Shown here piece after piece: positions 25,815 to 51,500 of a stretch of DNA of 51,888 bases (position 1 is its first letter; each line of letters opens with the position of its first letter). Position numbers and translations under genes: made by a program. Source of the stretch: Oscillospiraceae bacterium (GTDB lineage: Bacteria > Bacillota > Clostridia > Monoglobales > WRAG01); assembly GCA_009780345.1 (NCBI GenBank), contig WRAG01000013.1, positions 1-51,888 of the forward strand. Direction: 5' to 3'. The notes beneath the pieces were generated by a model. That model was not told the origin of the DNA. It made no database searches and worked only from the letters and a program-made list of their open reading frames with translations.

Positions 25815-26634
25815 TGATCCTAAAGCGCCACTTCTTCCCGAGCGAGATAAAGAACGAAATCCGGTTTTGGAATGTGTCGGGCTTGGAATTGACTTCGGCG
25901 GACTTACCGCTGTTGACGATTTCAACATCACAATCGGCGCGACCGAAATTTGCGGACTTATCGGACCGAACGGCGCGGGGAAAACAACGGTTTTCAACTT
26001 GCTTACAAAGGTTTATCAGCCGACGCGCGGTTCTATCTATCTTGACGGCAAAGATACCAAACATATGAACACCGTTCGCGCCAACAAAGCGGGAATCGCG
26101 CGAACGTTCCAAAACATTCGGCTTTTTAAAGGTTTGACGGTTATGGAAAATGTTCTTATCGGATTGCACAATGAAATGGATTATCGTTTGGGCGGCGCGC
26201 TGTTTCGCTTGCCGAATTATTGGAAAGCCGAGCGTATCGCGCGCGAGCGCGCGCTTGAATTGCTCTCAATTTTTGATATGCAAGACTTTGCCGAGCATAA
26301 ATCGGGCAGTTTGCCGTATGGTTCGCAAAGACGACTTGAAATCGTGCGCGCTTTGGCGACAAATCCGACCTTACTTTTGCTGGACGAGCCCGCGGCGGGG
26401 ATGAATCCTGCCGAAACCGATGATCTTATGTCCAACATTAAAAAGATTCAGGAAACATTCCAAATCGCCATTTTGCTTATTGAGCACGATATGAGTTTGG
26501 TTATGGGAGTTTGTGAAGGAATCGCGGTGCTTAACTATGGAAAACTTATCGCCAAAGGCACACCGGCAGAAATTCAGAATAATCCAAAGGTTATTGAAGC
26601 TTACTTAGGCGCGGGAGGTGGCGACGATGCTTAA
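25804..26634 (+). CDS. livG: ABC transporter ATP-binding protein LivG
   Basis: An ATPase subunit of 276 residues. Walker A is GPNGAGKTT (residues 54-62), followed by a LivG-type insert with ARTFQNIRLFKGLTVMENV. The signature region here reads SGSLPYGSQRRLEIVRAL, and Walker B is LLLLDEPAAGMNP. A non-conserved 20-residue lead precedes the domain. The start at 25804 is favoured over 25792 because GGTGG lies five bases upstream. It overlaps livM by 11 bases and livF by 8. Confidence 0.95.
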   Translation: MVNNDPKAPLLPERDKERNPVLECVGLGIDFGGLTAVDDFNITIGATEICGLIGPNGAGKTTVFNLLTKVYQPTRGSIYLDGKDTKHMNTVRANKAGIARTFQNIRLFKGLTVMENVLIGLHNEMDYRLGGALFRLPNYWKAERIARERALELLSIFDMQDFAEHKSGSLPYGSQRRLEIVRALATNPTLLLLDEPAAGMNPAETDDLMSNIKKIQETFQIAILLIEHDMSLVMGVCEGIAVLNYGKLIAKGTPAEIQNNPKVIEAYLGAGGGDDA

Positions 26635-31715: not shown

Positions 31716-32492
31716 TTAGTAAAGTTCTAAATCGATTACCATCGAGGGATTCCATAAGACTCCATACCCTTCTCGCCGCTCGTCCGGCGTTACCTCGGTT
31801 GCGATGTTAATCGAACCTCTGCCCGACAAATCAATCACAGCCGTTTGTTCATAGGTTTCGCCGTCATTGAATATTACATTAGCACGGATTTCTATACTTT
31901 CGGGAATATTATCAATGTTAACATCATTGCTACCCCAAAATAACAGTATGTCATCGTCCATAGCACTACCAAAGGTTATAGCATTTCCGACAACATAAAA
32001 CTCTGTACCAAACATCATCAGTTGACTATCTAAACCCATATAAGTGTGTGGCACGGACTCTGTGTGTGCTAAACTTCTGATACGTTGCGTTGCGAAAAAT
32101 CCCTCGTTAGTAGAGAACTCAACATTTTGAATGTTATTCCCCTTGTATCTTAGACCAACACTGACAAAAAAATTATCGCCGTCAAAATGTCCTGCCCAAA
32201 ATTCGTTTGTCATAAGGTCAATTTCACGCAATCCAAACGTGCCGTCCTCTTGTACTTCCATAGCAAAGGCTTGTAGCGAAAAAGTGTTGTTCACATCGGG
32301 AGCAAAAAACCTAACTCCAAATACAGCGAACATCAGCACTGCCGCCGTTGTTGCGAGTGAAATAGCGGTGCGGAAAACAGGGCGTTTTTTATTGCGTTGT
32401 TGCTTTTGCTTTATTTTTTCAAGTATGCGCTTGTCAGCAGCAGCATTTAGCCGAATTGTATCAAGAGCATCAATTATTTTTTTATTCTTCAT
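31716..32492 (-). CDS. Membrane-anchored anti-sigma factor-like protein
   Basis: The 258-residue product begins MKNKKIIDALDTIRLNA, a cytoplasmic segment rich in Lys/Gln. One membrane helix follows (AISLATTAAVLMFAVFGV) at about residues 44-62, then an extracytoplasmic beta-rich part. This topology and its 11-base overlap with an ECF sigma gene mark it as the cognate anti-sigma factor of the DUF4179-like class. The ATG at 32492 lies within the end of the sigma gene. The extended frame upstream to 32603 merely reads through the sigma-gene tail and is rejected. The inducing signal is unknown. Confidence 0.8.
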   Translation of the reverse strand: MKNKKIIDALDTIRLNAAADKRILEKIKQKQQRNKKRPVFRTAISLATTAAVLMFAVFGVRFFAPDVNNTFSLQAFAMEVQEDGTFGLREIDLMTNEFWAGHFDGDNFFVSVGLRYKGNNIQNVEFSTNEGFFATQRIRSLAHTESVPHTYMGLDSQLMMFGTEFYVVGNAITFGSAMDDDILLFWGSNDVNIDNIPESIEIRANVIFNDGETYEQTAVIDLSGRGSINIATEVTPDERREGYGVLWNPSMVIDLELY

Positions 32493-33123
32493 TTTCCAAC
32501 ACCCCTTTCTCGTCACAACAAACTTCACTTTGCTCGTTTTCGGACAAAGGGCGTCCGAAAAGCTCACACGTTTTGTTATTGCTCCTCTTTCCCACAAAGT
32601 CACAAACCGACTTGGCGGGAGCCCTATCTTCTGCGAGAATATCTCGCAGAAGGAACCTTGCCTCTCGCATATGATAACGAACGGTGGAGTGCGGTTTTTT
32701 GAGTATTTGAGCGACTTCTGCGGTTGAGTACCCCTCGTAATAGTAAAGATACATTACATCTTTATAGCGTTCGGGCAAATTCAAAATAATTTTTAACACT
32801 TCATTTTCTTGGAATGGATTTGCGGTTTCCAAATTTTCATAATCATCTATATTCGCACGACTACGCCACCAATGTTTGAAAAAATCTTTACATTTATTTA
32901 TTGAAGTTCGCAAAAACCACGCTTTTTCGTGTTCAGCACTCTTAAAGGTTGTGCCGTCTTTTAGCAGTTTTGCGAATATATCAGCAACCACATCTTCTGC
33001 GTCTGCCGCATTTTTCATATATGCAAAGCAAACTCGATATATCATAGCAGATTGTCGCTTGTAGATTTCCTCAAAAGTACCTGATGTGTATTCTTCGCCG
33101 CGCGCAAGCGAGAAAATAATCAT
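32482..33123 (-). CDS. ECF-type RNA polymerase sigma factor
   Basis: A 213-residue sigma factor. Region 2 shows YRVCFAYMKNAADAEDVVADIF and region 4 shows LPERYKDVMYLYYYEGYSTAEVAQ followed by STVRYHMREARFLLRD. Family members normally end soon after that helix; here a tail of about 47 residues continues with a Cys-containing stretch (KTCELFGRPLSENEQSEVCC). That part of the gene is full of inverted repeats. AAAGGGGG precedes the start. The overlapping downstream gene is its likely anti-sigma factor, and its targets may include the neighbouring surface genes. Confidence 0.9.
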   Translation of the reverse strand: MIIFSLARGEEYTSGTFEEIYKRQSAMIYRVCFAYMKNAADAEDVVADIFAKLLKDGTTFKSAEHEKAWFLRTSINKCKDFFKHWWRSRANIDDYENLETANPFQENEVLKIILNLPERYKDVMYLYYYEGYSTAEVAQILKKPHSTVRYHMREARFLLRDILAEDRAPAKSVCDFVGKRSNNKTCELFGRPLSENEQSEVCCDEKGVLENEE

Positions 33124-39444: not shown

Positions 39445-42400
39445 ATGAAAAAATGTTTACTAAGCATGTTGACACTTTGTTTGACGTTCGTTATTGCACT
39501 TCCGACGATCGGTTTTCTTCAACCGGTCATCGTAAATGCTGATTTCATCAGCGAAGCGGAGGTCACCAACATATCAGATGTATTACAAAATAGTCCGGCG
39601 CGGTTTAGGACAGTTCGTTATTGGGAGGGCGACACTATCTGGGCATCTCATGCCAGTCACGGTTTTGACCTTAACCGAAACGCCGCCACCAAATGGCATG
39701 CGGTTGATTTTCTAACAGGTCGAACAATTACGCGTGTTGTTATAACCTTAGGAGGCGTTACCGGCACGCCAAGTTTCAGGCTTGACAGATATGAATACGG
39801 CGCTAGTCGCGCGCAAGATGAATGGATTACATTCCATCCGACGACGACGGTTCCCGGCAGCGGCGCAACGCGCACATTCACAGTTTATCTTGATCAACCG
39901 GTCGAAACTTCCAAATTCCGCGTATTTCTTACAAACGCGGCGGGAGTATATGTGGGATACGACCAAAATCGGGTAAGGGCGTTTAACGATTCTCCGTTTG
40001 TAACCGCTCCTCAGCATTTCGATATTAAAACAAGCGCAGGCGTGCCGCCGATTCTGCCTAACTGGTTTAACATACCACAACAAAACGGCGGGCGTGTGTT
40101 GATGCCTATTTCCTGGCCGTATCAAGGACTTGGTGACAGGTCGTTGGCAAATTCGCCGGGCACATATCAGGTAACCGGAACTTGGACTGCCGGCGGCGAA
40201 AGCGGTACGGTTGTCGCCAACGTGACGGTAAGAGCGGACGCCAATCTCGCGCCTATGCCTGTGCCTTATATGGGTTGGAATAACTGGTACCATTCAATGA
40301 GCTCTATTACTCAGGCAGGCGCGATGGAACAGGTTGAAGCTTTGATAAACCTAGGTTTGCACGAACTGGGCGACTGGGGGCATAATCAAGGTTATAACCT
40401 TATATGGATTGACGATTTTTGGTGGGGCGCTCGCTTTAACGCCGGAAGCAACAGTTACGGCGACGGTAATCCCAACGCTACTCGCACCGGAGACCAAGGT
40501 CCCGTGCGTTTCCGCGACATTAACGGCGACATTCTCACTCGCCATAACTTCAATTACGATTTCGGTCAATGGGTGCAGTGGTTGCATGCTCAAGGATTAC
40601 GAGCGGGCATTTATACCGACACGGGTGCGTGGGGCTGCGGACAGGGAATCGGCAGCGGCGGCAATAATTGGTTTGAAAATTATAGGCGCGATGTGCAGCG
40701 GTTCGTAGACTGGGGCGTTGACGCGCTGAAACTTGACCATTGCGGCGGACATAACAACAAATGCGAGATTTGCCAATACAATCCGCCGGGAAACCCCACA
40801 AGACGCGATGTTGCTTGCATATGCCCGGGCAGACATCTCGGTCTTGATTATAACTTCGATGTTTATGCCGCATTTTATCAAGCAATGCAGGAGATAATGG
40901 GCGATAATCAAACGATTATATTAAATATGTGCGAGTGGGGGCAAGACGGCCCGACAGAATGGGCGCATAAAATCGCTAACACCTGGCGTACCGAATATGA
41001 TTTAGGCAGTTTCTTGCGCCGTCCTGACCGTGACCCGTGGGAAGGCGTGCTTGCCGCGTTCGATAGCAACTTAGCGCCGGCGGCAAATCGCCCGAACACG
41101 GTTAACGACCCGGATTATATAATATTCGGTTATATGGGGCATGGAGACCCCGCATCTTTGCTGACTGATTTCCAAACCCGCTCATACTTTACCATGTGGG
41201 CTATGATGGCGGCACCGCTTATCCTTTCGACTGATTTGACGAGATTGACGAGAGAGTGCTTTAACTTCCAAACGATTACTAATCTTGACATGATTTCAAT
41301 CAACCAGGATCCGTTGGTGAAGCAATGTTATCTCGTGCGTGAAGACGAGCCCGGTTTGCAAGTTTGGGCGAAACCGCTTTACACCGAAACGCAGGGCAGG
41401 CAGCGTTATGCAGTAATGCTGCTCAACCGCAACCGCGTATCCGGCGGAATCGGCTTTAATTGGAGTGATATAGGGCTTGAAAATGTTGAAACGGCACGCA
41501 TTGTTTGGGATTACAAATATGCTGACGTTTCAGGAACAGACAGTTATGTTACATTCTTGGAAGCATTTGAAGCGTATGTGCTTATCGTCGAAGGTGATAA
41601 AGTCAATCGCACAAGCGGCTTCCCGACAAATGACTTTGCTCGCGGTATTGAAGTTGAAGCTCTGGCAAACAGCGCGTCTCGCCCGTTGGGGATGGCTCCG
41701 GCACGCCCGAACAATGCGCAAAGAGCTTTGGACGGCAGATTAAACACCGCATGGCAACCGCTTAACAGAACTCTTGATGACTCATACTGGTGGCAAGTTG
41801 ATCTTGGACAGCCGCGCAGTTTTGACAGAATTGTTATGAATTTGGACTTCGCGCGGCGAATTGATACCCCTCCTCGCCCGCTTTTAGGAGAAACAGCTCC
41901 GCCGCCCGTTCAAGATTCGGACTTTTTCGATTCGCGTTTAGAGTATTTCGACGGAAATGACTGGCAGTTATTGGCCACTATATCCGCTGCCCAGAAACAA
42001 CGGGGCGATAACGTAATTAATTTTAGTTATGTTACCGCACAAAGGCTGCGTTGGTATATTTCTGACGCAGATTGGTCGGTACAGCCGCGTCTTATCAGTT
42101 TTTCGGTTTTCGATTCAAGTAATATCACGAATGCCGATTTTGAATCATTGGCAACCGCTCCTAACATGGGCGAAAACATAGCAAGACACGGCAATGTTTT
42201 GGTTACCGCGAATTCAGACCGTCCGACAACACATCCTGCCTCGGCGGTTATCGACGGTAACGACAATACCCGCTGGAACGTAGCGGGTGGCGAGATAAAT
42301 TCGTGGATTATGCTGGATTTCGGCGAACCTACCGAAACTGCTCGAATGGAAATCGTAACACAGTATCCCGACGCAAGGTTTGATAACGTGGACATTCAAT

Positions 42401-43602
42401 ATAGTAATAATAACGTAGATTGGAATACATTGGCGCAGATACGAAGATCTCCATCCGGTAGTCAAATAGAGCCGGCAAGTTTTATGGAAATCATTTACCA
42501 GCCGGTAACCGCCAGATATTATCGTATCCATTTCACGCATCCTTCGGATTCGCCGCGACAAGCGACTGTAACACACTGGCGCGTCTTTGATAAGATGCCG
42601 CCACCACCGGTAACCTACAACGTCACTTTTGAAGGAAACATTGCGGCGGATTCAATCGTGGTGCGTAACGCTATGGGAGTGGTTATGCAACCTGAAAGCC
42701 CGGGAGTGTTCCGTTTAGAGCGCGGTTTGTATACATTTACGGCGTCGCGTAGCAATTATGCTGATGCGACCGGCTTTTTCCGAGTAAGAAATGATAATAT
42801 GGTGGTGCCTTTCGAATTCACCCGAATATTGAACAGGAATTTGGCTTTGCAAGCGACGGCAAGTGCGTCGTCACAATGGGATGCTAACCATGCCGCTTCG
42901 CGAGTTAATGACGGTAACATCGCAACTCGCTGGAACGACCGTGATTGGAGCGCAGATAACCCATCTTGGCTTGCTTTGGATTTCGGAGCGCCCACAAGAA
43001 CTGTCGGCATGGAAATATATTTCGGTCAATTTGCCGCAAGGCACGCAAGGGCTACTATTTATTGGAGCAACGACAATTCAAATTGGAATAGTCTGGCGGT
43101 AATTGCGCTGGACCCCGCTCCGGGCGAATTCCAAGTGGAACGCACAACGCGGATTTCATATCCAGCGGTTACGGCAAGATACTATAGGATAGTATTTTAC
43201 GAAGTTGTGCCGTACTTAGGACCTACGCCTGCTGCAACATTGCATGAATGGCGCGTATTCGGATCTAACACCGTGAAAATTTTTGATGACGCGGGGAATG
43301 AGATTGTAAACAATGATACGATTCCTGCGACGGGCGGGTTGACCTTAAATACGGTCTTTTTCAACGGCAGAAACGAATCTTCACAGGTAATTGTTTTTGC
43401 GGCGGCGCGCAACCGTAACGGCAGGCTTGTAAGTATATCGACTGAACAAATCATAATTCCCGTCCATTCAAATGGTCACGCAAATATTATTCTACCGCTG
43501 CCCGAAGACAGGGAAAACATACAAAACGTTAGGGTAATTGCGCTCGAACGCAATTATCTCGCTCCACTCGATGAGTTTTTTGAACTGACTTTCTCGCGAT
43601 AA
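39445..43602 (+). CDS. Secreted multidomain GH27 glycosidase (alpha-galactosidase-like)
   Basis: The 1385-residue precursor carries a signal peptide (LLSMLTLCLTFVIALPTIG), an N-terminal discoidin-like domain and an Ig-like segment. The GH27 barrel starts at YMGWNNWYHSMSSI (about residue 275), with nucleophile Asp431 in DALKLDHCGG and a likely acid/base Asp557 in DPDYIIFG. After the barrel's C-terminal beta domain come further discoidin/F5-8 type modules (WQVDLGQPRSFDRIVMNL, WIMLDFGEPTETARMEI, WLALDFGAPTRTVGMEIYF) and a last beta-sandwich ending NVRVIALERNYLAPL. It probably releases terminal alpha-galactose or beta-L-arabinopyranose from plant or host glycans. An unusual Cys cluster (CGGHNNKCEICQ, ACICPG) directly follows the nucleophile. 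Confidence 0.9.
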   Translation: MKKCLLSMLTLCLTFVIALPTIGFLQPVIVNADFISEAEVTNISDVLQNSPARFRTVRYWEGDTIWASHASHGFDLNRNAATKWHAVDFLTGRTITRVVITLGGVTGTPSFRLDRYEYGASRAQDEWITFHPTTTVPGSGATRTFTVYLDQPVETSKFRVFLTNAAGVYVGYDQNRVRAFNDSPFVTAPQHFDIKTSAGVPPILPNWFNIPQQNGGRVLMPISWPYQGLGDRSLANSPGTYQVTGTWTAGGESGTVVANVTVRADANLAPMPVPYMGWNNWYHSMSSITQAGAMEQVEALINLGLHELGDWGHNQGYNLIWIDDFWWGARFNAGSNSYGDGNPNATRTGDQGPVRFRDINGDILTRHNFNYDFGQWVQWLHAQGLRAGIYTDTGAWGCGQGIGSGGNNWFENYRRDVQRFVDWGVDALKLDHCGGHNNKCEICQYNPPGNPTRRDVACICPGRHLGLDYNFDVYAAFYQAMQEIMGDNQTIILNMCEWGQDGPTEWAHKIANTWRTEYDLGSFLRRPDRDPWEGVLAAFDSNLAPAANRPNTVNDPDYIIFGYMGHGDPASLLTDFQTRSYFTMWAMMAAPLILSTDLTRLTRECFNFQTITNLDMISINQDPLVKQCYLVREDEPGLQVWAKPLYTETQGRQRYAVMLLNRNRVSGGIGFNWSDIGLENVETARIVWDYKYADVSGTDSYVTFLEAFEAYVLIVEGDKVNRTSGFPTNDFARGIEVEALANSASRPLGMAPARPNNAQRALDGRLNTAWQPLNRTLDDSYWWQVDLGQPRSFDRIVMNLDFARRIDTPPRPLLGETAPPPVQDSDFFDSRLEYFDGNDWQLLATISAAQKQRGDNVINFSYVTAQRLRWYISDADWSVQPRLISFSVFDSSNITNADFESLATAPNMGENIARHGNVLVTANSDRPTTHPASAVIDGNDNTRWNVAGGEINSWIMLDFGEPTETARMEIVTQYPDARFDNVDIQYSNNNVDWNTLAQIRRSPSGSQIEPASFMEIIYQPVTARYYRIHFTHPSDSPRQATVTHWRVFDKMPPPPVTYNVTFEGNIAADSIVVRNAMGVVMQPESPGVFRLERGLYTFTASRSNYADATGFFRVRNDNMVVPFEFTRILNRNLALQATASASSQWDANHAASRVNDGNIATRWNDRDWSADNPSWLALDFGAPTRTVGMEIYFGQFAARHARATIYWSNDNSNWNSLAVIALDPAPGEFQVERTTRISYPAVTARYYRIVFYEVVPYLGPTPAATLHEWRVFGSNTVKIFDDAGNEIVNNDTIPATGGLTLNTVFFNGRNESSQVIVFAAARNRNGRLVSISTEQIIIPVHSNGHANIILPLPEDRENIQNVRVIALERNYLAPLDEFFELTFSR

Positions 43603-43634
43603 CAAGTTGTTATCTTAGCTGATTTTCAAAATAA

Positions 43635-43756
43635 GTAAAAAGGGCGCAATTAGGACACCTTCCATAAAGCAGGATATTGCGACACCGTGCAAATAATTTG
43701 CAACGACAGTCTAACTTGCCTGCGATATAAAAGGCGTGCCTTTGCACCCTTTTTGC
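43635..43756. repeat. 122-base imperfect palindrome between the GH27 and amidase genes
   Basis: The two ends (AAAAAGGG...GCAA and TTGC...CCCTTTTT) are inverted copies. Similarity runs inward through most of the element to a central TGCAAATAATTTGCA palindrome near 43688-43702. It separates two convergent genes and could end transcription from either side, though no simple stem with a T-tract is seen. Confidence 0.6.
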
Positions 43757-43779
43757 TTATGCTAATATTTTAAACCAGT

Positions 43780-44532
43780 TCACTCTCCCGTGATATATCT
43801 CACGACATTTCGTATCATGGTCGCAACCTCTGCGCGGGTTGCGGCGTCATTCGGTCGAAAGTTTCCGGTTTCGTCGCCGTTTACTATTCCGAACTCTCTG
43901 AGCTCGTTGATTTGCCTTTCCGCCCAATGACCTTGAACATCTTTAAACATAGCGCCTTCGCCTCCTTGATATGTAATTCCAAATTGTTCGCAAATGCCTT
44001 TTGCCACAGCTTCGGCAAGTTCAAATTGCCGATTGCGCAAAATATCGTTATCATTCATATTGTCGATAAAAGCTAACTCTACCAACACCGCCGGAGCTTT
44101 CGTGTTTCGCAAAACCGCAAAATTAGCCGTTTTCACTCCGCGGTCACGCAATCCGATTCCAACAAGTTGTCTATGAATGCGCGATGCTAATTCTTCCCTT
44201 TTTCCGCCTCTTGCGAATATATAGGTTTCGGTTCCGAACGCGCTACCATTAAAGGCATTACAATGAATTGAAACAAAATAGTCGGCGTTAAAACGGTTAC
44301 TTCCTTGCGTTCGAAGTTGTAAACTTTCCGAAACCGTTCTTCCGAGGATATCAGTTAGGTTCCAACGACTCATTCCGACTTCAACACCGTGAAATTCAAG
44401 CAATACACGAATTGTGTTCGCGACTTGAAATGTTACGTCTTGTTCGCGCAGACCAAACCCAACGGCGCCGGTATCGGGAGCTTTATAATTATGTCCCGCG
44501 TCCAGATAAACTCTCTTTTTTCTATTAAGCAT
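43780..44532 (-). CDS. N-acetylmuramoyl-L-alanine amidase (endolysin-like) with C-terminal SLH domain
   Basis: The 250-residue enzyme has an Amidase_3 domain with zinc ligands His14 (DAGHN), Glu30 (REQD) and His90 (SIHCN) and catalytic Glu152 (VLVELAF). It cuts the amide bond between muramic acid and L-alanine in peptidoglycan. One SLH repeat follows at about 195-248 (MFKDVQGHWAERQINELREF, FRPNDAATRAEVATMIRN). There is no signal peptide, so like phage endolysins it needs another route out; the holin-like gene lies 12 bases upstream. Endolysins usually bear other wall-binding modules, so an SLH anchor suggests adaptation to a host with secondary wall polymers. AGGAGGAAA precedes the ATG. Confidence 0.9.
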   Translation of the reverse strand: MLNRKKRVYLDAGHNYKAPDTGAVGFGLREQDVTFQVANTIRVLLEFHGVEVGMSRWNLTDILGRTVSESLQLRTQGSNRFNADYFVSIHCNAFNGSAFGTETYIFARGGKREELASRIHRQLVGIGLRDRGVKTANFAVLRNTKAPAVLVELAFIDNMNDNDILRNRQFELAEAVAKGICEQFGITYQGGEGAMFKDVQGHWAERQINELREFGIVNGDETGNFRPNDAATRAEVATMIRNVVRYITGE

Positions 44533-44544
44533 TAAAATTTCCTC

Positions 44545-44868
44545 CTAGTCTATTTTCGGACGTTCAGGAACCTCGAAACCGTGACTGTATATAAACTCTT
44601 GCAAAACTAAAATATACTGCCTGTCGTTTTCCATCTCTTTTCGTATATCTGCTATAATACGCTCGGCCGCCGCCAACTTTTCAAGTGTTGAAGTATATCG
44701 TTCGATAGCGATACTTTCTAAATTCATGGCATTTTTAACAGTTATGCTCTCAGTATCTACTTTAGTTTTCTTTCTGGTAAAAACACCTTGAATTAACGCG
44801 ACTAATCCGCCGCTTCCAACAACCGTTAATACAAGCCACCATATAACGCTTATATTTTCATGCTCCAT
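44545..44868 (-). CDS. Holin-like small membrane protein
   Basis: The predicted product is 107 residues: a short N-terminus, one strong membrane segment (ISVIWWLVLTVVGSGGLVALI), a basic patch (RKKTK) and a cytoplasmic coiled coil (LEKLAAAERIIADIRKEMEND). AGGAGG lies eight bases before the ATG at 44868; the longer frame to 44904 is less likely. Its position directly before an endolysin-type amidase is the usual place of a holin, but the single membrane segment and long coiled coil resemble only some phage holin-like or 'hemolysin XhlA'-type proteins. The function is inferred from context. Confidence 0.65.
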   Translation of the reverse strand: MEHENISVIWWLVLTVVGSGGLVALIQGVFTRKKTKVDTESITVKNAMNLESIAIERYTSTLEKLAAAERIIADIRKEMENDRQYILVLQEFIYSHGFEVPERPKID

Positions 44869-44924
44869 CGTTTCTGCCTCCTTGCTTTTCAGGTTAATAA
44901 TCAACTTTCATGAAATTATGAGAC

Positions 44925-44950
44925 AAAAAGGAGTCAAACGACTCCTTTTT
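44925..44950. terminator. Terminator separating the tail-fibre pair from the holin-amidase pair
   Basis: AAAAAGGAGT/ACTCCTTTTT, a ten-pair stem with a six-base loop and T-runs in both directions, about 60 bases downstream of the gene ending at 45012. Confidence 0.88.
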
Positions 44951-45011
44951 ATCTTTTCTATTCGTCTATTTGCACTTTAACTAAACTTTTTTAAGACTGC
45001 TTGTCCACAAT

Positions 45012-45350
45012 TTAGTTTTTTGCAAGCCATTCGTAGTATTCTTGCTCGGTTCCCTTATAAATTTCTCGAGCGGCATCGTAATCATCGAATTGCAACCCGT
45101 CAAACCATTCTTTTCCTGTTTGGTCGATAGGGGTGACAGTAGGGTTCAAAGCTCCAAGATATTCTATTTTAGCATCTCGTTCTTGGTCGTTTAGAGCTAC
45201 ATACACATTGGGAAGAAATTCAATCTTTCTGTGAGAAACGGGGCTTCCGTCTTCATCCCTGGTCCATGACAACTGCTCTACCGGCTCTCCCCATTCAAGA
45301 AGCCATCTACCTAAGTGTACTGTTCTGCCAATTCTTTTAAATCCAAACAT
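45012..45350 (-). CDS. Small protein of unknown function in the phage-like cassette
   Basis: A 112-residue soluble protein with no signal peptide or membrane helix. It opens MFGFKRIGRTVHLGRWLLEW, contains PVSHRKIEFLPNVYVALND and ends in an acidic aromatic stretch (FDDYDAAREIYKGTEQEYYE). I do not recognise a family. AAGGAGGAAA precedes the ATG, and it lies 36 bases after the tail-fibre-like gene, so the two are co-transcribed. A chaperone for the long repeat protein or a small tail component would fit the position, but neither is shown. Confidence 0.75.
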   Translation of the reverse strand: MFGFKRIGRTVHLGRWLLEWGEPVEQLSWTRDEDGSPVSHRKIEFLPNVYVALNDQERDAKIEYLGALNPTVTPIDQTGKEWFDGLQFDDYDAAREIYKGTEQEYYEWLAKN

Positions 45351-45386
45351 GTTATTTCCTCCTTAAATATTATAATAATTTTTAAT

Positions 45387-47600
45387 TTAAACATTGTGAC
45401 CTTGTCTAATATTTTGTACATTTGATTCTGAGATTTGAAAATCTGAATTCCAGGAACTATTTCCTATAACAATACCGCTTAGCACGTTTTCCAGCACAAC
45501 ATGAGAAGACCACGAAGAAAACGTATTTCCTTTAATATTGGCGTGGACTCTAGTGGAGCCTCCCCAGGTAGTGCCATTTACAGTAACTTGACTTATAAGG
45601 TTGTCGGTTATATTAAGTGAACCCGCAGCATTCTGAAACCTTATGTCGCCTGAGCTAAAACTGTTAGCTGAAATGTTTATATGCGCTGACCAATCAGGAT
45701 TTGTAATTATAACACCGGCTCCGTTCCAACCAAAGATATTATTGTGTATGTTTACAAATCGGCTTCCACTTGATAAGTTAATTGCTCCTGACTTAGCCTC
45801 GCAATTTTCTATGTTAAAGCGATGACACCAGGTCGAATTTACAAGCGTCCCCATATTTTCAATATGCAAATCTCTTAGTCCAAAATCAAAACTATTAACG
45901 TTAAATATGGTATTGCTGCTCCAACTAGTCAAGTAAGTGCTTCTTCCACCCATTCCTATAATTGTGCAAGGCCGATTTATATTAACAGGAGTATTTATTA
46001 AATAATTTCCGGTATGAATCAGAATTTTGCCGCCCTGCCATGATGGCAATGAATCGTGAGCCTGTTGAAGCATTGGGCCGAAGTCTCCTCCTTGATACCA
46101 GAAATCACCTTCGCCTTGAACAGTACTTATAACCACAGTAGCCGCACGTGTGCCGCTACTGTCACCACCACCGTTATTTGGAATTGCATTTACTTGCGCT
46201 TGCAATTTCCCGACGGCTGTAAGCACATTATCGTTTGCTAAAACTTGAGTAGGTGATTGAGTAGCCAACCCTGTAAGCGGAACTCTTCTTACAGATTCGG
46301 CAACTCGTTGAGGGGACCAAGAACGTACTGTTGCTGCTGAACCCGCTTGAGCTTCGGCTAATGTTGCTAAAGTCGGATTTGCCGACAATAAGGTAAACGA
46401 GCCCGAGGCATGCGTTCCTCTATATTCTATAAGATATACGCCTCCTACAAGAAACGTACCTACCGGAGTTGTTACCCCTGCCGTATTGTTGGTATTAGAC
46501 AAGAAAATACGCCGGTTGCCAAGATTGGCTCCTGTATTGTTGTTAATAACGGCAATACTAACTGATTCGGCAGTATTCGCCGCATGAATTCGAATAAAGA
46601 ATCGCATACCATCTTCATATTGCGTCACTACCGGATTTGGTCTTATTGTTAAAGCGTTTGCCGTGCCGGCGGTTACCCAGGTCTGCGGCATTGCGCTTCC
46701 GCCGCCAATGTTATCAGGCAAACGCGCCTCCGGTATTTTCCCATCGGCGTCCAATAGACGGTGACCATATACTTGTAATGTATTTGGATTGCTGTTTGTG
46801 CCTGTGCCAAGTTGAATTGCATTACTGAATGATCGTGCGTTAGCTCCTCCTGAAAAACCGGATTCGGCAATTGCGCCACTTCCAATCGCACCGCCGGATA
46901 TAGCATTAGCCCCAGCCCCGACTGCGCCTCCCCATCCCGCGTTAGCTCCAGCTCCAACCGCACCTCCTTCTGTAGTGAAAGTCGTATCTCCAACCGCGCC
47001 GCCGCCACCTGTTGATACCGCATCCCGGCCAACTGCGCCTCCTTGACTGGTTAAGGCACCTTCTCCAATGGCTCCGCCATCATCAGAAACAGCCCAATGA
47101 CCAACTGCGCCGCCGGCGGCGGCTGTGGCTCTAAAACCAACCGCTCCGCCGCCAAACTCCGCGTCTGCATTATAACCAACCGCTCCGCCTCCGAATTCCG
47201 CTATTGACATATGTCCAATCGCTCCGCTACCATCCCTTGCCATCGCATGTTGTCCAACCGCTCCGCTGCCAAATTCTGCTATCGCGTTGCTTCCAACCGC
47301 TCCGCCGTCCATTGTGCGGGCATCTTCTCCAATGGCTCCGCCATGGCGCGCTGTAGCTCTATTTCCTCCAGCATATCCTCTCCCTGTTAACTGCATTGGC
47401 TGGATTCCTGTCACGCCTTCTTCGCTTATGCCGGTTACCGTTGCTTGTGGATTGTCAATATCAACCCGATTTAGCCTCTCGACTCTTTTCTTTTTTCTTT
47501 CCATACTTGATTCCGCGCGCAATCTTTCAGAATATCTCTCACGTTCTTCAATATCACAAGCGCGGATCTTTTTTCTTTCTTCCCGTGTCATGTTTTCCAT
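45387..47600 (-). CDS. Tail-fibre-like protein with GGAVG repeat array and beta-helix domain
   Basis: A 737-residue protein without a signal peptide. Residues 1-45 are highly charged and helical. Residues about 75-260 hold some thirteen near-repeats of about 14 residues built on G-G-A-V/I-G-x-x-A, like the heads of trimeric adhesins (YadA/Hep_Hag style). Then comes GHRLLDADGKIPEARLP, a phrase common in phage tail proteins, a mixed beta region, and a C-terminal right-handed beta-helix (IEN, HNNIFG, ISANSFS and similar turns at about 510-720) as in tailspikes. It probably forms a trimeric surface-binding fibre. AAAGGAGG lies before the ATG, and a bipartite box lies about 80 bases upstream. Confidence 0.8.
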   Translation of the reverse strand: MENMTREERKKIRACDIEERERYSERLRAESSMERKKKRVERLNRVDIDNPQATVTGISEEGVTGIQPMQLTGRGYAGGNRATARHGGAIGEDARTMDGGAVGSNAIAEFGSGAVGQHAMARDGSGAIGHMSIAEFGGGAVGYNADAEFGGGAVGFRATAAAGGAVGHWAVSDDGGAIGEGALTSQGGAVGRDAVSTGGGGAVGDTTFTTEGGAVGAGANAGWGGAVGAGANAISGGAIGSGAIAESGFSGGANARSFSNAIQLGTGTNSNPNTLQVYGHRLLDADGKIPEARLPDNIGGGSAMPQTWVTAGTANALTIRPNPVVTQYEDGMRFFIRIHAANTAESVSIAVINNNTGANLGNRRIFLSNTNNTAGVTTPVGTFLVGGVYLIEYRGTHASGSFTLLSANPTLATLAEAQAGSAATVRSWSPQRVAESVRRVPLTGLATQSPTQVLANDNVLTAVGKLQAQVNAIPNNGGGDSSGTRAATVVISTVQGEGDFWYQGGDFGPMLQQAHDSLPSWQGGKILIHTGNYLINTPVNINRPCTIIGMGGRSTYLTSWSSNTIFNVNSFDFGLRDLHIENMGTLVNSTWCHRFNIENCEAKSGAINLSSGSRFVNIHNNIFGWNGAGVIITNPDWSAHINISANSFSSGDIRFQNAAGSLNITDNLISQVTVNGTTWGGSTRVHANIKGNTFSSWSSHVVLENVLSGIVIGNSSWNSDFQISESNVQNIRQGHNV

Positions 47601-47676
47601 AACTTTTTACCTCCTTTTTTGATATTATATTTGCTGCTTTTGTGTATCGCACCCCCTCCTGATTTATGCCCTCATA

Positions 47677-47711
47677 GTAAATAGGGATTCGTCGTTAATA
47701 AATATTAAACA
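47677..47711 (-). promoter_or_regulatory. Bipartite box upstream of the tail-fibre-like gene
   Basis: On the minus strand: TGTTTAA (47705-47711), 15 bases, AATCCCTATTTAC (47677-47689). Both halves and the spacing are identical to those at 48163-48197. The left half overlaps the last codons of the sigma-like gene. It may be a promoter for the sigma-like protein or an operator. Confidence 0.6.
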
Positions 47712-48142
47712 TTTTTTATATCTTTTTTTAATTTTTCAATTATTCTTTTAATTTGAATAGATATTGCGGCGGGAGACACTTCTAGCTTTTCAGAAGCTTC
47801 TTTTTGCGATAAACCTTTATAGAACAAAATAAACAAAATATCCTGCTGGTGTTTTGTTAGTCTATGTAATACGCGTTTCAACTTTATATTTTCCATATCT
47901 TCAATCCATTCGATCGGCGTGAGATATTCTTTGTGGAAAAACTCGAAGCATTCGCCATATTTGTTTATAGCGACAAGATATTCAAAAGTTTTGTCATTTT
48001 CAATTGCAAGTTCTACTGAAAATTCATATTTTTCAATTTCAGCCTGTTTTTTGTGGAAATTTAACTTTTCAAAACGCAGCCAAGCTCGGAAATATCTTTC
48101 CTTATCAATTATATCTTCTTTTTTTGTTCTTGGTCTTGGCAT
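47705..48142 (-). CDS. Sigma-70 region 4-like regulatory protein
   Basis: A 145-residue protein. The last 60 residues hold a sigma region 4-like helix-turn-helix: LTKHQQDILFILFYKGLSQK, then EASEKLEVSPAAISIQIKRI. The first 85 residues are charged and helical, with a short segment that might be a reduced region 2 (NKYGECFEFFHKEYLTPIEW). The size and arrangement recall small alternative sigma factors that control toxin or bacteriocin release genes in clostridia, and also phage late regulators. AAAGGGGGA precedes the ATG. The same bipartite DNA box lies before this gene and before the tail-fibre gene, suggesting self-control and control of the cassette. Which of the two classes it belongs to is uncertain. 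Confidence 0.75.
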   Translation of the reverse strand: MPRPRTKKEDIIDKERYFRAWLRFEKLNFHKKQAEIEKYEFSVELAIENDKTFEYLVAINKYGECFEFFHKEYLTPIEWIEDMENIKLKRVLHRLTKHQQDILFILFYKGLSQKEASEKLEVSPAAISIQIKRIIEKLKKDIKNV

Positions 48143-48162
48143 TTGTTAATTCCCCCTTTAAT

Positions 48163-48197
48163 GTAAATAGGGATTAAAATTAATAAAAAGTTAAACA
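48163..48197 (-). promoter_or_regulatory. Bipartite box upstream of the sigma-like gene
   Basis: TGTTTAA (48191-48197), 15 bases, AATCCCTATTTAC (48163-48175) on the minus strand, ending 21 bases before the start codon. It is identical in both halves and spacing to the box ahead of the tail-fibre-like gene. Confidence 0.6.
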
Positions 48198-48336
48198 GTA
48201 TAAAAAATTTAATTTAGTTGTTTTCAGACTAAATAAACATTTTTTGCTAATTAATGTTATTTATTGTCAATTTTTATCATAAATTTACCATAAAAGACAT
48301 TAATTGTAAATATTTGTAAATAATTTTCTTTGAATT
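48198..48336. other. AT-rich gap without recognisable gene
   Basis: Very AT-rich DNA upstream of the sigma-like gene. I see no reading frame, RNA or clear repeat; it may contain additional upstream control sequence. Confidence 0.5.
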
Positions 48337-48368
48337 AAAAAAAGAGCCAAGTCGTTTTCGACTTGGCT
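48337..48368 (-). terminator. Second terminator downstream of the S-layer gene
   Basis: AGCCAAGTCG/CGACTTGGCT, ten pairs with a TTTT loop and a run of seven Ts on the minus strand (with one G between). It lies 97 bases beyond the first terminator. Confidence 0.85.
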
Positions 48369-48464
48369 ATGTAGCTGAACACTATTTTTAAAATTTTAGT
48401 GATAAAAAAGAATTTGAAAATATTGAAAGTGAGTTAAATTAGAAAATTATAGGTGAAAAATAAA

Positions 48465-48490
48465 AAAAGAGCCGCTTTTGCGGCTCTTTT
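48465..48490 (-). terminator. Terminator of the S-layer type gene
   Basis: AAAAGAGCCGC/GCGGCTCTTTT, an 11-pair stem with a TTTT loop and T-rich tail on the minus strand, 26 bases after the stop codon. Confidence 0.92.
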
Positions 48491-48516
48491 CGGTTGTTTG
48501 TCTAAGTTTTTAAAGC

Positions 48517-51500
48517 TTATCTTAAAAATTCCAACGTTCTGTAGATGATTATCGCCATTTCGGCTCTCGTAATCGAATCGGTCGGATTAAAGTTTCCTGC
48601 CGGGTCGCCGCTTACGATTTCTAGCGCGCGGAACGTGTTTACCGCTTCAATCGCGTAATCGGCGATCGCCGCATAATCAACAAACGCCGCAGATGCCGTT
48701 GCTCCTGCAATTGCATCCATGTTTACCAGCATACGATAAAGCAACACAACCGCATCTTGACGAGAGATATTCAAGCCAACGCCGTAGTTTCCTGTGCCGT
48801 CGCCAAGCGAAATTCCGTGATCATACATCGTTGAAACCGCATTAAAGAACCAATCGCCCGGGTTCGCGTCTGCGAACGGAGCATCGCCATTAATTCGCTC
48901 AAGTTCGAACGCGTTAACGATGATTTGAGCCATTTGTTCGCGCGTCATTGAGTTGTTCGGCGCGAATCCGCCCGTTCCGTCTCCGCTAACTACGTTGCGG
49001 CTGTATAACCAAACGATTTGGTTAGACGCCCAGTGACCTGTTATATCGTTAAACGGAAGTTCAACCGGTTGATTATCCGGTGGCTGCGGGGTTACGTTGC
49101 TTATATTTCCAACATCCATTCCGCCGCCGGGACGGTTCCAGTTTCCTCCGCCGCCGGCACCACCGCCACCTCCGCCGCCTCCATTACCGTTACCTTGCTG
49201 CGGTGGAAGTGCTACAACCACTATCGGAATGACACCGGTTTGAGTTTCACCGTTAACAATAGCTGTGGCTGTCAGATTTATGGTTCTGTCAGTTATTTGC
49301 CTTGTAGGAGTTAAAGTAAAGCCATCTATCCTCGCTACGGATGGCGACGCTGAAGTCCATGAAGTTATAGCGTAACCTTCATGTTCTGTCGGCAATTCAA
49401 TCGGTCCTGTTATTCGAGCGGGCAATACAAGAGTTTCAAATATGTTTGTTTGACCCGGAGTGCCGTTATCTCCTCCCCCCATAGAATAGCCACCTATAAA
49501 GTTTACGCCTGTAACGCCTGCCGGGAACACAAAACGAACAAATCGCGCGCGAACCGCCGCAGACAACGTGATTAAGTTATGTCTGTCCGGCACCATTGCG
49601 CCTCCGGTATGTGCATGCGACCAAACCGAGCCGTCAGTAGAGCTATATATTCTTACTCCGCTAACATTCACGCCTTCATATACTATCGCAAACTCAGAGA
49701 AAACTGTGTCGCCAATTGTATCAAGCGTAATTGTTCTGTCGTTTTCAATTATAGACCATCGGGTGTTTACGTCATCATTTACCGCAAGCCTTTTAGTTCT
49801 GCCCGCGTTTTCGTCGACAACCGTCGCTGTTACAAAACGGTCACTTCCGGGAGTACGGATTATTGTGAAGTAGAAAGCTTGACTCACTTCTACTCCATCA
49901 TCGATAAACGCTGTAATTCTCGCGTTTACATCTCTGCCGTGCTGACGATTGATAATTACGTTTACATATCCGTCGCCCGCAGTTCCGATTCGGGTTATTG
50001 TCGGGTCTGCCGCAACCCAGCTGATGTTGGTTTGTTCAGCTATGGTCGGAAGAGTGAAGTTGCTTGTCGCAACCATTCTGTCAAATGTTAAATTGTTAAG
50101 TAACCATTCAAAATATCCCGCGTCAGAGCTTATTCCAAGCGCGATAACGTTTATCGTTTTCGTTTGTGACGCGCCGCCTGCCGTTACTGTCGCCGTAAGG
50201 GTTACGGGCGTATCGTTTTGCGGACGAGTAAGCGCGCCGGCCGCGTCGATAACATTCGGTTGGCTTGAAGTCCAGGCAATTACCGGATCAGTATATCTCC
50301 ATGAAGTGAACATGTCCAAATCTTCGCGGATACGTTCAACATTGCCTACATATATCGTTTCAGGAGATATATGGTTTATGGTTGACGCCAAAGCGTCGCT
50401 AAACGAAACGGCGATTATCGCGGGGCGCAAGTCAGAAGTGACCGTTGCCGCCGCGCCGTGGAATTCTGCAGTTGATACAATCGTAAAGGTTTGAGTTGAC
50501 GCACCATTAGCTAAAATCCCCGGTAATAGGTCGCCGACGTAAACGCTGCCGCTTTCATCGAGCAATCTTGTGACGCCGTTAACTGTAACGCTGTCTCCGG
50601 GCGTAAATTCGCCGTTAAGCGGAACCAATCTCAACCAAACCGAGTCTAAGTTGCTTACATTAGCCAAAGCCGCCGATAAATTGGCAGTCACCGTAGAAGT
50701 TCCGGTAAGAATTTCGCCTCCGCCCACTTCAACCGGGGTTGTAGCTGTCGCATGCGCGGGATTCGCGCGATTCGCAAGTACGGTCAAGTTAAATTCTCTT
50801 TGCAAAGAGTGGATGTGGTTCGGCCCGGTAAACGGATCATGGTGAGAGAAAGTCGCGGTCAGGGTAACATCTCTATCGCTTTCTCCGAATGCCGGTCTGT
50901 TTACAAATCCCGCCGCGTCGATTATACTGTTATCAGATGATTGCCAGCTTATAGAAACGCCGTTGGGGCGTGATGTCGGCAAGTTTAGGTTCTTTGATAT
51001 ATTTCTGTGATCTTCTGAAGAAATATATCCATAGTTAACTTCGTCAATCGCATCATTTACCCGGCTCATCGCGTCGGTTATAAGTCCGACTCTCATAATC
51101 GGCTCGCCCGGCAATCTTGACATTCCGGTTATTGTCATACCACCGCGGGGACCGCCCCATGGATTAGCAACACCGGGTGAGGTAAACACGGTATAAAACA
51201 ATGATAATCTAACAGTTACGCCGGTTTCGTCGGGATATCTTTCTAAGAATTCTCTAATGCTAAAATTGGCTTGTGGAGATGTTCTTTCCCACAAGTCGCC
51301 TGTAAGCAAAGGTCCGCGGGCGCTAGGCGAGAATCGACTGACAACATAACGCGCGTCAGTTCTCATCGAACTGTTTATTCCTCCGCCCGGTGTCGGCACT
51401 ACAACCGATACGCCGGGACCGTCTAATGTTCTGTAATCAAAATGAGCCAAATGCGGCGGCATTAAGTATACACCCGCCGGTTGTGCGCCCGTACCCATAA

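Follow-up and report, generated by a model that had tools for sequence, protein, structure and literature searches.

A two-part DNA box before a sigma-like gene and the adjacent fibre-like gene: a candidate autoregulated switch in a small phage-derived cassette

The minus strand of the window, by which we mean the whole 51,888-nt stretch of DNA that was analysed, carries the two-part box TGTTTAA-N15-AATCCCTATTTAC exactly twice (48163-48197 and 47677-47711, 0 mismatches), once before the gene of a sigma-like regulator and once before the gene of a fibre-like protein. The two boxes are probably a genuine pair of control elements, of a type already known and confined to a single cassette. Our preferred reading, to which we give a probability of roughly 0.55, is an autoregulated switch in which the boxes are promoter or operator elements and the 145-aa regulator drives both itself and the fibre operon. 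Autoregulated control of this kind is a known and ordinary mechanism; here it is a proposal and not yet proven, and we infer direct binding, the positive sign of the control, the transcription starts, the autoregulation and the exact promoter geometry. The features on which the argument draws are these:

43780-44532, minus strand: N-acetylmuramoyl-L-alanine amidase, endolysin-like, with an S-layer homology domain, 250 aa (PF01520, 3.5e-41; PF00395, 1.5e-13)
44545-44904, minus strand: protein of 119 aa with one hydrophobic segment near the N-terminus and a charged tail, holin-like by position only
44925-44950, listed on the plus strand: terminator-like hairpin (GGAGTC/GACTCC, flanked by A/T runs) that falls between the genes of the 112-aa and 119-aa proteins
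45012-45350, minus strand: small protein, 112 aa (weakly similar, E 0.002, to a 128-aa protein adjoining the fibre gene of relative L051)
45387-47600, minus strand: fibre-like gene, 737 aa, with the GG-A-V/I-G-type head repeats common to the fibre-like proteins of relatives
47677-47711, minus strand: box F, exact match, 76 nt upstream of the fibre gene ATG at 47600
47705-48142, minus strand: sigma-like regulator gene, 145 aa (Pfam, PHROG sigma factors, Foldseek)
48163-48197, minus strand: box R, exact match, 20 nt upstream of the regulator ATG at 48142
48345-48491, minus strand: two terminator-like hairpins 3' of the neighbouring S-layer gene, upstream of the regulator

The regulator gene is situated between box R and box F, and the same site precedes both the regulator gene and its presumed target gene, as in an autoregulated circuit. 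All 20 defined bases are identical in the two boxes and the spacer is 15 nt long in each; the earlier note had described a bipartite box present twice, with 20 identical positions and equal spacing upstream of minus-strand genes, and the exact matches bear this out. Identity falls to 5/15 in the spacer itself and, when the flanks are aligned on the boxes, to 25/60 upstream and 29/70 downstream, the outer flanks being at about the level given by AT-rich DNA. The contrast between the spacer (5/15) and the boxes (20/20) has a Fisher p of 1.6e-5, which is a descriptive value because the boxes were defined by identity. The TGTTTAA half of box F (47705-47711) covers the regulator stop codon. That a box overlaps the end of the regulator gene had also been noted, and the overlap does extend over 7 bases including the stop codon, but the accompanying statement that the box is preserved despite coding constraint was overstated, since a single sequence and only its final codons are involved. 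An imperfect 25-nt inverted repeat (48249-48305, 84% complementary, 7-nt loop) lies, in addition, about 50 nt upstream of box R.

Searches beyond the window indicate that the box element is private to the cassette. In the assembly searched (2,047,034 bases in 59 contigs, completeness 96%), there is no third copy of the full box at up to 3 mismatches, and neither the 13-mer by itself (1 mismatch allowed) nor the shortened pattern TGTTTAA-N(12-20)-CCCTATT has a copy other than box R and box F. Many random copies elsewhere in the genome had been named as one observation that would speak against a regulatory role; since the boxes are absent from the rest of the 2.05-Mb assembly, the pair does not belong to a scatter of this sort. 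A relaxed box with flexible spacing, run over the window and contig C6 of the same genome, gave nothing better than 5/20 mismatches outside the two boxes, and its matches resemble those of a reversed control. The box is also absent from 50 other same-order genomes (up to 2 mismatches) and from viral contigs; among 391 same-class genomes, 13 others have a single 2-mismatch copy each, against about 9 for the reversed pattern, and these copies are chance-like. No related cassette carrying the same box was found in any of these three sets, so that comparative (phylogenetic) backing for the box is absent, while its statistical backing is modest.

The regulator has a region 4 domain of the -35-binding type, and its DNA binding is predicted from this domain. 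A sigma-70 region 4 helix-turn-helix occupies residues 88-140 approximately (PF08281, 3.2e-7; PF04545, 4.7e-7; both above cut-offs), the protein matches PHROG sigma factors (phage sigma families), and many sigma models match it below their cut-offs. In Foldseek the C-terminal domain finds sigma-4/-35 domains, with an rmsd of about 1 A over 53-59 columns in several matches, some of them to targets solved on -35 DNA, and no E-value below 0.001. The description of the protein as sigma-like therefore stands as far as region 4 is concerned, but no family match to region 2 was detected (Pfam), and when its profile was compared with that of the ECF sigma encoded in the window (32482-33123), region 4 alone aligned. 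The predicted structure is usable for the C-terminal domain alone, the N-terminal half having no confident fold in either model; because this half is so poorly resolved, it may still hold a strongly diverged region 2.

The regulator has no relatives in viral contigs or plasmids, one distant region 4 match in genome contigs (Aestuariibaculum) and three weak region 4 matches in phages. Its N-terminal part gave weak partial matches only in the 391 class genomes, and no convincing relative of this half emerged from any of the viral, genome, phage, plasmid and class-genome searches. The nearest full-length-like protein, of 167 aa and 30% identity, comes from a same-order genome (L060), where its gene adjoins an integrase-like gene. 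PADLOC reported nothing beyond helix-turn-helix matches. GC content is 30% in the regulator and 17% in its upstream DNA, compared with 46% in the window, and this AT-richness is consistent with the regulator and the boxes having arrived together. The segment 47705-48340 as a whole is much more AT-rich than its surroundings, which suggests an origin separate from that of the fibre and amidase genes.

In the switch that we postulate, TGTTTAA would occupy a -35-like position and be contacted by the sigma region 4-like domain; unaided or together with the holoenzyme of the host RNA polymerase, the regulator would initiate the transcripts of both genes immediately past AATCCCTATTTAC. A start 6-7 nt past TATTTA would make both leaders workable: that of the regulator would be at most about 20 nt long and would retain the AAAGGGGG ribosome site, and that of the fibre gene would be about 70 nt long. 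The parts of a standard -35/-10 pair are about 16-18 nt apart, whereas TGTTTAA and TATTTA are separated by 21 nt, a distance which looks too long for a standard pair. A -10 element within or around ATCCCTAT would suit the spacing, yet this stretch resembles no known -10. Because no region 2 was detected and the 21-nt spacing is nonstandard, it seems to us likelier that the regulator works as a region 4 activator or partial sigma, comparable to phage late activators, than that it is a complete one-chain sigma. It is tempting to speculate further, though we rate the idea as improbable, that a region 4-only partial sigma with a novel N-terminal half reads a private, oddly spaced two-part promoter, and that the bacterium uses this two-gene switch to activate a fibre and lysis cassette which it has domesticated, and perhaps also the capsid-fibre-amidase island that lies apart from it in the genome.

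Whether the boxes are more than a coincidence, in which two AT-rich spacers happened to share 13 + 7 bases, depends on the null that is chosen. The zero expectation of the first pattern scan was discarded as unfair, because the box pattern had been derived from the data themselves. When the 916-nt stretch 47601-48516 was simulated by a first-order Markov model, 27 of 20,000 copies held any exact 13+7 bipartite repeat with a spacing of 8-22, and with free block sizes the information score of the box pair, which is the top-scoring bipartite pair of the real stretch, was reached in 1 of 1,500 copies. The local chance of a comparable repeat in this AT-rich DNA is thus about 0.0007-0.0014, or one simulation in roughly 750 to 1500. 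When the window was simulated in its full length of 51.9 kb, by contrast, 13 of 60 Markov runs (about 1 in 5) held a comparable bipartite repeat somewhere, and the earlier reader, whose scan took in all 52 kb, could have met such a repeat by luck. Much of the weight is therefore borne by placement, both boxes lying just before the start codons of adjacent same-strand genes; this placement argues for meaning, and we regard coincidence as rather unlikely. In real DNA, of which about 249 kb from relatives' loci and contig C6 was scanned, close bipartite repeats fall in a few clusters, which were annotated in part, and those inspected look like within-gene repeats or duplicated stretches with matching spacers. 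The window itself has another exact bipartite repeat, at 25972 and 26735, which is probably the nucleotide-binding motif of two adjacent ATPase genes.

If the boxes are real elements, their reader could still be another protein. They might form a shared promoter or operator for a host alternative sigma factor, regulator or repressor, the 145-aa protein acting elsewhere, a view which would accommodate a box spacing ill-suited to a simple sigma -35/-10, the lack of a region 2 in the regulator and the fact that proximity alone ties the regulator to the boxes. However, it would be unusual for a host regulator to serve no more than two neighbouring sites in a genome of 2 Mb, and the cassette's sole DNA-binding gene sits between the boxes, so that we take a host reader to be unlikely, if worth keeping in mind. 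Far less probable is a recombination footprint, that is, a direct repeat left by insertion or duplication of the regulator and playing no part in control: the boxes do closely flank the regulator gene, and the AT-rich regulator segment looks foreign, but an insertion repeat would match throughout, which is at odds with the divergent spacer and flanks, and no integrase or transposase was noticed adjoining the cassette. A role of the second part of the box in RNA, with CCCU pairing to a downstream AGGG and hiding the regulator's ribosome site as a form of translational control, seems to us equally far-fetched. Such pairing to the AAAGGGGG ribosome site can indeed form in the regulator leader (fold -6.8 kcal/mol), but the fibre leader pairs differently and leaves the fibre ribosome site exposed, the constant distance of 15 nt from TGTTTAA suggests an element that works as DNA, and there is no Rfam match.

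The autoregulated switch, if it operates as proposed, may not extend to all of the genes around it. The hairpin at 44925-44950 probably works on the minus strand too, because its sequence is nearly symmetrical, and it splits the fibre operon from the genes for the 119-aa protein and the amidase; the fibre promoter may therefore miss the amidase, and the earlier suggestion that the sigma-like protein controls the whole cassette becomes doubtful. On the other side, the hairpins at 48345-48491 are predicted terminators that would shield the regulator from read-through. The cassette, consisting of fibre, small protein, membrane protein and amidase, is a small, phage-derived leftover, flanked on both sides by host-type surface and enzyme genes and with no DNA-level match to phages. 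Its 737-aa fibre-like protein has no Pfam or PHROG family above threshold, and by eye the C-terminal half resembles a beta-helix. The 112-aa protein is possibly a companion of the fibre, to judge from its counterpart beside a relative's fibre gene; no family was found for the 119-aa protein in domain-profile searches, and neither of these two has relatives in viral contigs. The 250-aa amidase matches PHROG endolysin (7e-58), and contig C6 of the same genome encodes a close relative (1.4e-79).

A small sigma-like protein in a phage-derived element, near fibre, membrane and amidase genes, is reminiscent of Xpf, the positive control factor of the Bacillus subtilis prophage PBSX, and of similar sigma-like late activators of phages. 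In keeping with the Xpf family, the regulator weakly matches the NCBIfam model NF005385, 'positive control sigma-like factor' (5.9e-5, 22.8 bits, below the cut-off of 136, C-terminal half alone). However, Xpf is listed with both sigma-2 and sigma-4 (PMC10141391), whereas the regulator here shows region 4 alone, and unlike in PBSX no tail-tube, sheath or head operon adjoins the cassette. Since neither the full-length family match of an Xpf-like late activator nor the region 2 of a complete one-chain sigma-70 factor was found, we would class the regulator by behaviour, as working like Xpf or sigma factors and not as one of them. TcdR of clostridia, for example, drives tcdA, tcdB and tcdR (PMC7438776), and the proposed circuit likewise has a sigma-like protein driving its own and neighbouring genes from shared promoters, but the target here is a fibre-like gene rather than a toxin, no region 2 is detected in the regulator, and no TcdR-specific sequence match to it was among the matches listed. 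SigO-RsoA of B. subtilis, listed as a two-chain sigma factor (PMC10141391), offers a likeness in that the sigma function is split and one chain lacks a region; in contrast, the cassette here holds no partner gene with region 2. The short region 4 protein of L060, from an integrative element, is of similar size and has a related W-I-E-x-x-E-N stretch before region 4, but the N-terminal parts align poorly and its gene adjoins the integrase-like gene and not a fibre gene.

Should the proposal prove true, the locus would offer a compact regulator and promoter pair that is private to one cassette and lends itself to study in a simple reporter system. One would also see how a fibre and lysis cassette of phage origin, left isolated once the remainder of the phage was lost, retains a switch of its own. 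In addition, the locus would add a promoter element for the sigma-like proteins of mobile elements, whose consensus sequences are mostly unknown; for instance, a start-site study of C. difficile states that those of the putative sigma factors on its mobile elements have yet to be identified (PMC7438776).

Other phage-like genes occur in the same genome and in its relatives. An island on contig C6 of this genome (G000), at about 42121-48536 (L054:2122-8537), encodes a major-head-like protein (PHROG 267, 4e-40), a virion structural protein, a fibre that shares the head repeats and the amidase close to the window's own; the box is absent from this island. The terminase, baseplate and other structural genes of a complete prophage or tailocin did not come to light, as judged by the two families tried, Baseplate_J and Terminase_6N, neither of which has a match in the 96% complete assembly. 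Six same-order loci (L046, L047, L049, L050, L051 and L052) have fibre-like genes with GG-A-V/I-G head repeats, and some of the same-order genes of this kind adjoin membrane and amidase genes. In L046 and L050 the gene that precedes the fibre-like one resembles elongation factor P; the fibre-like gene of L052 lies within a contractile-tail-like cluster.
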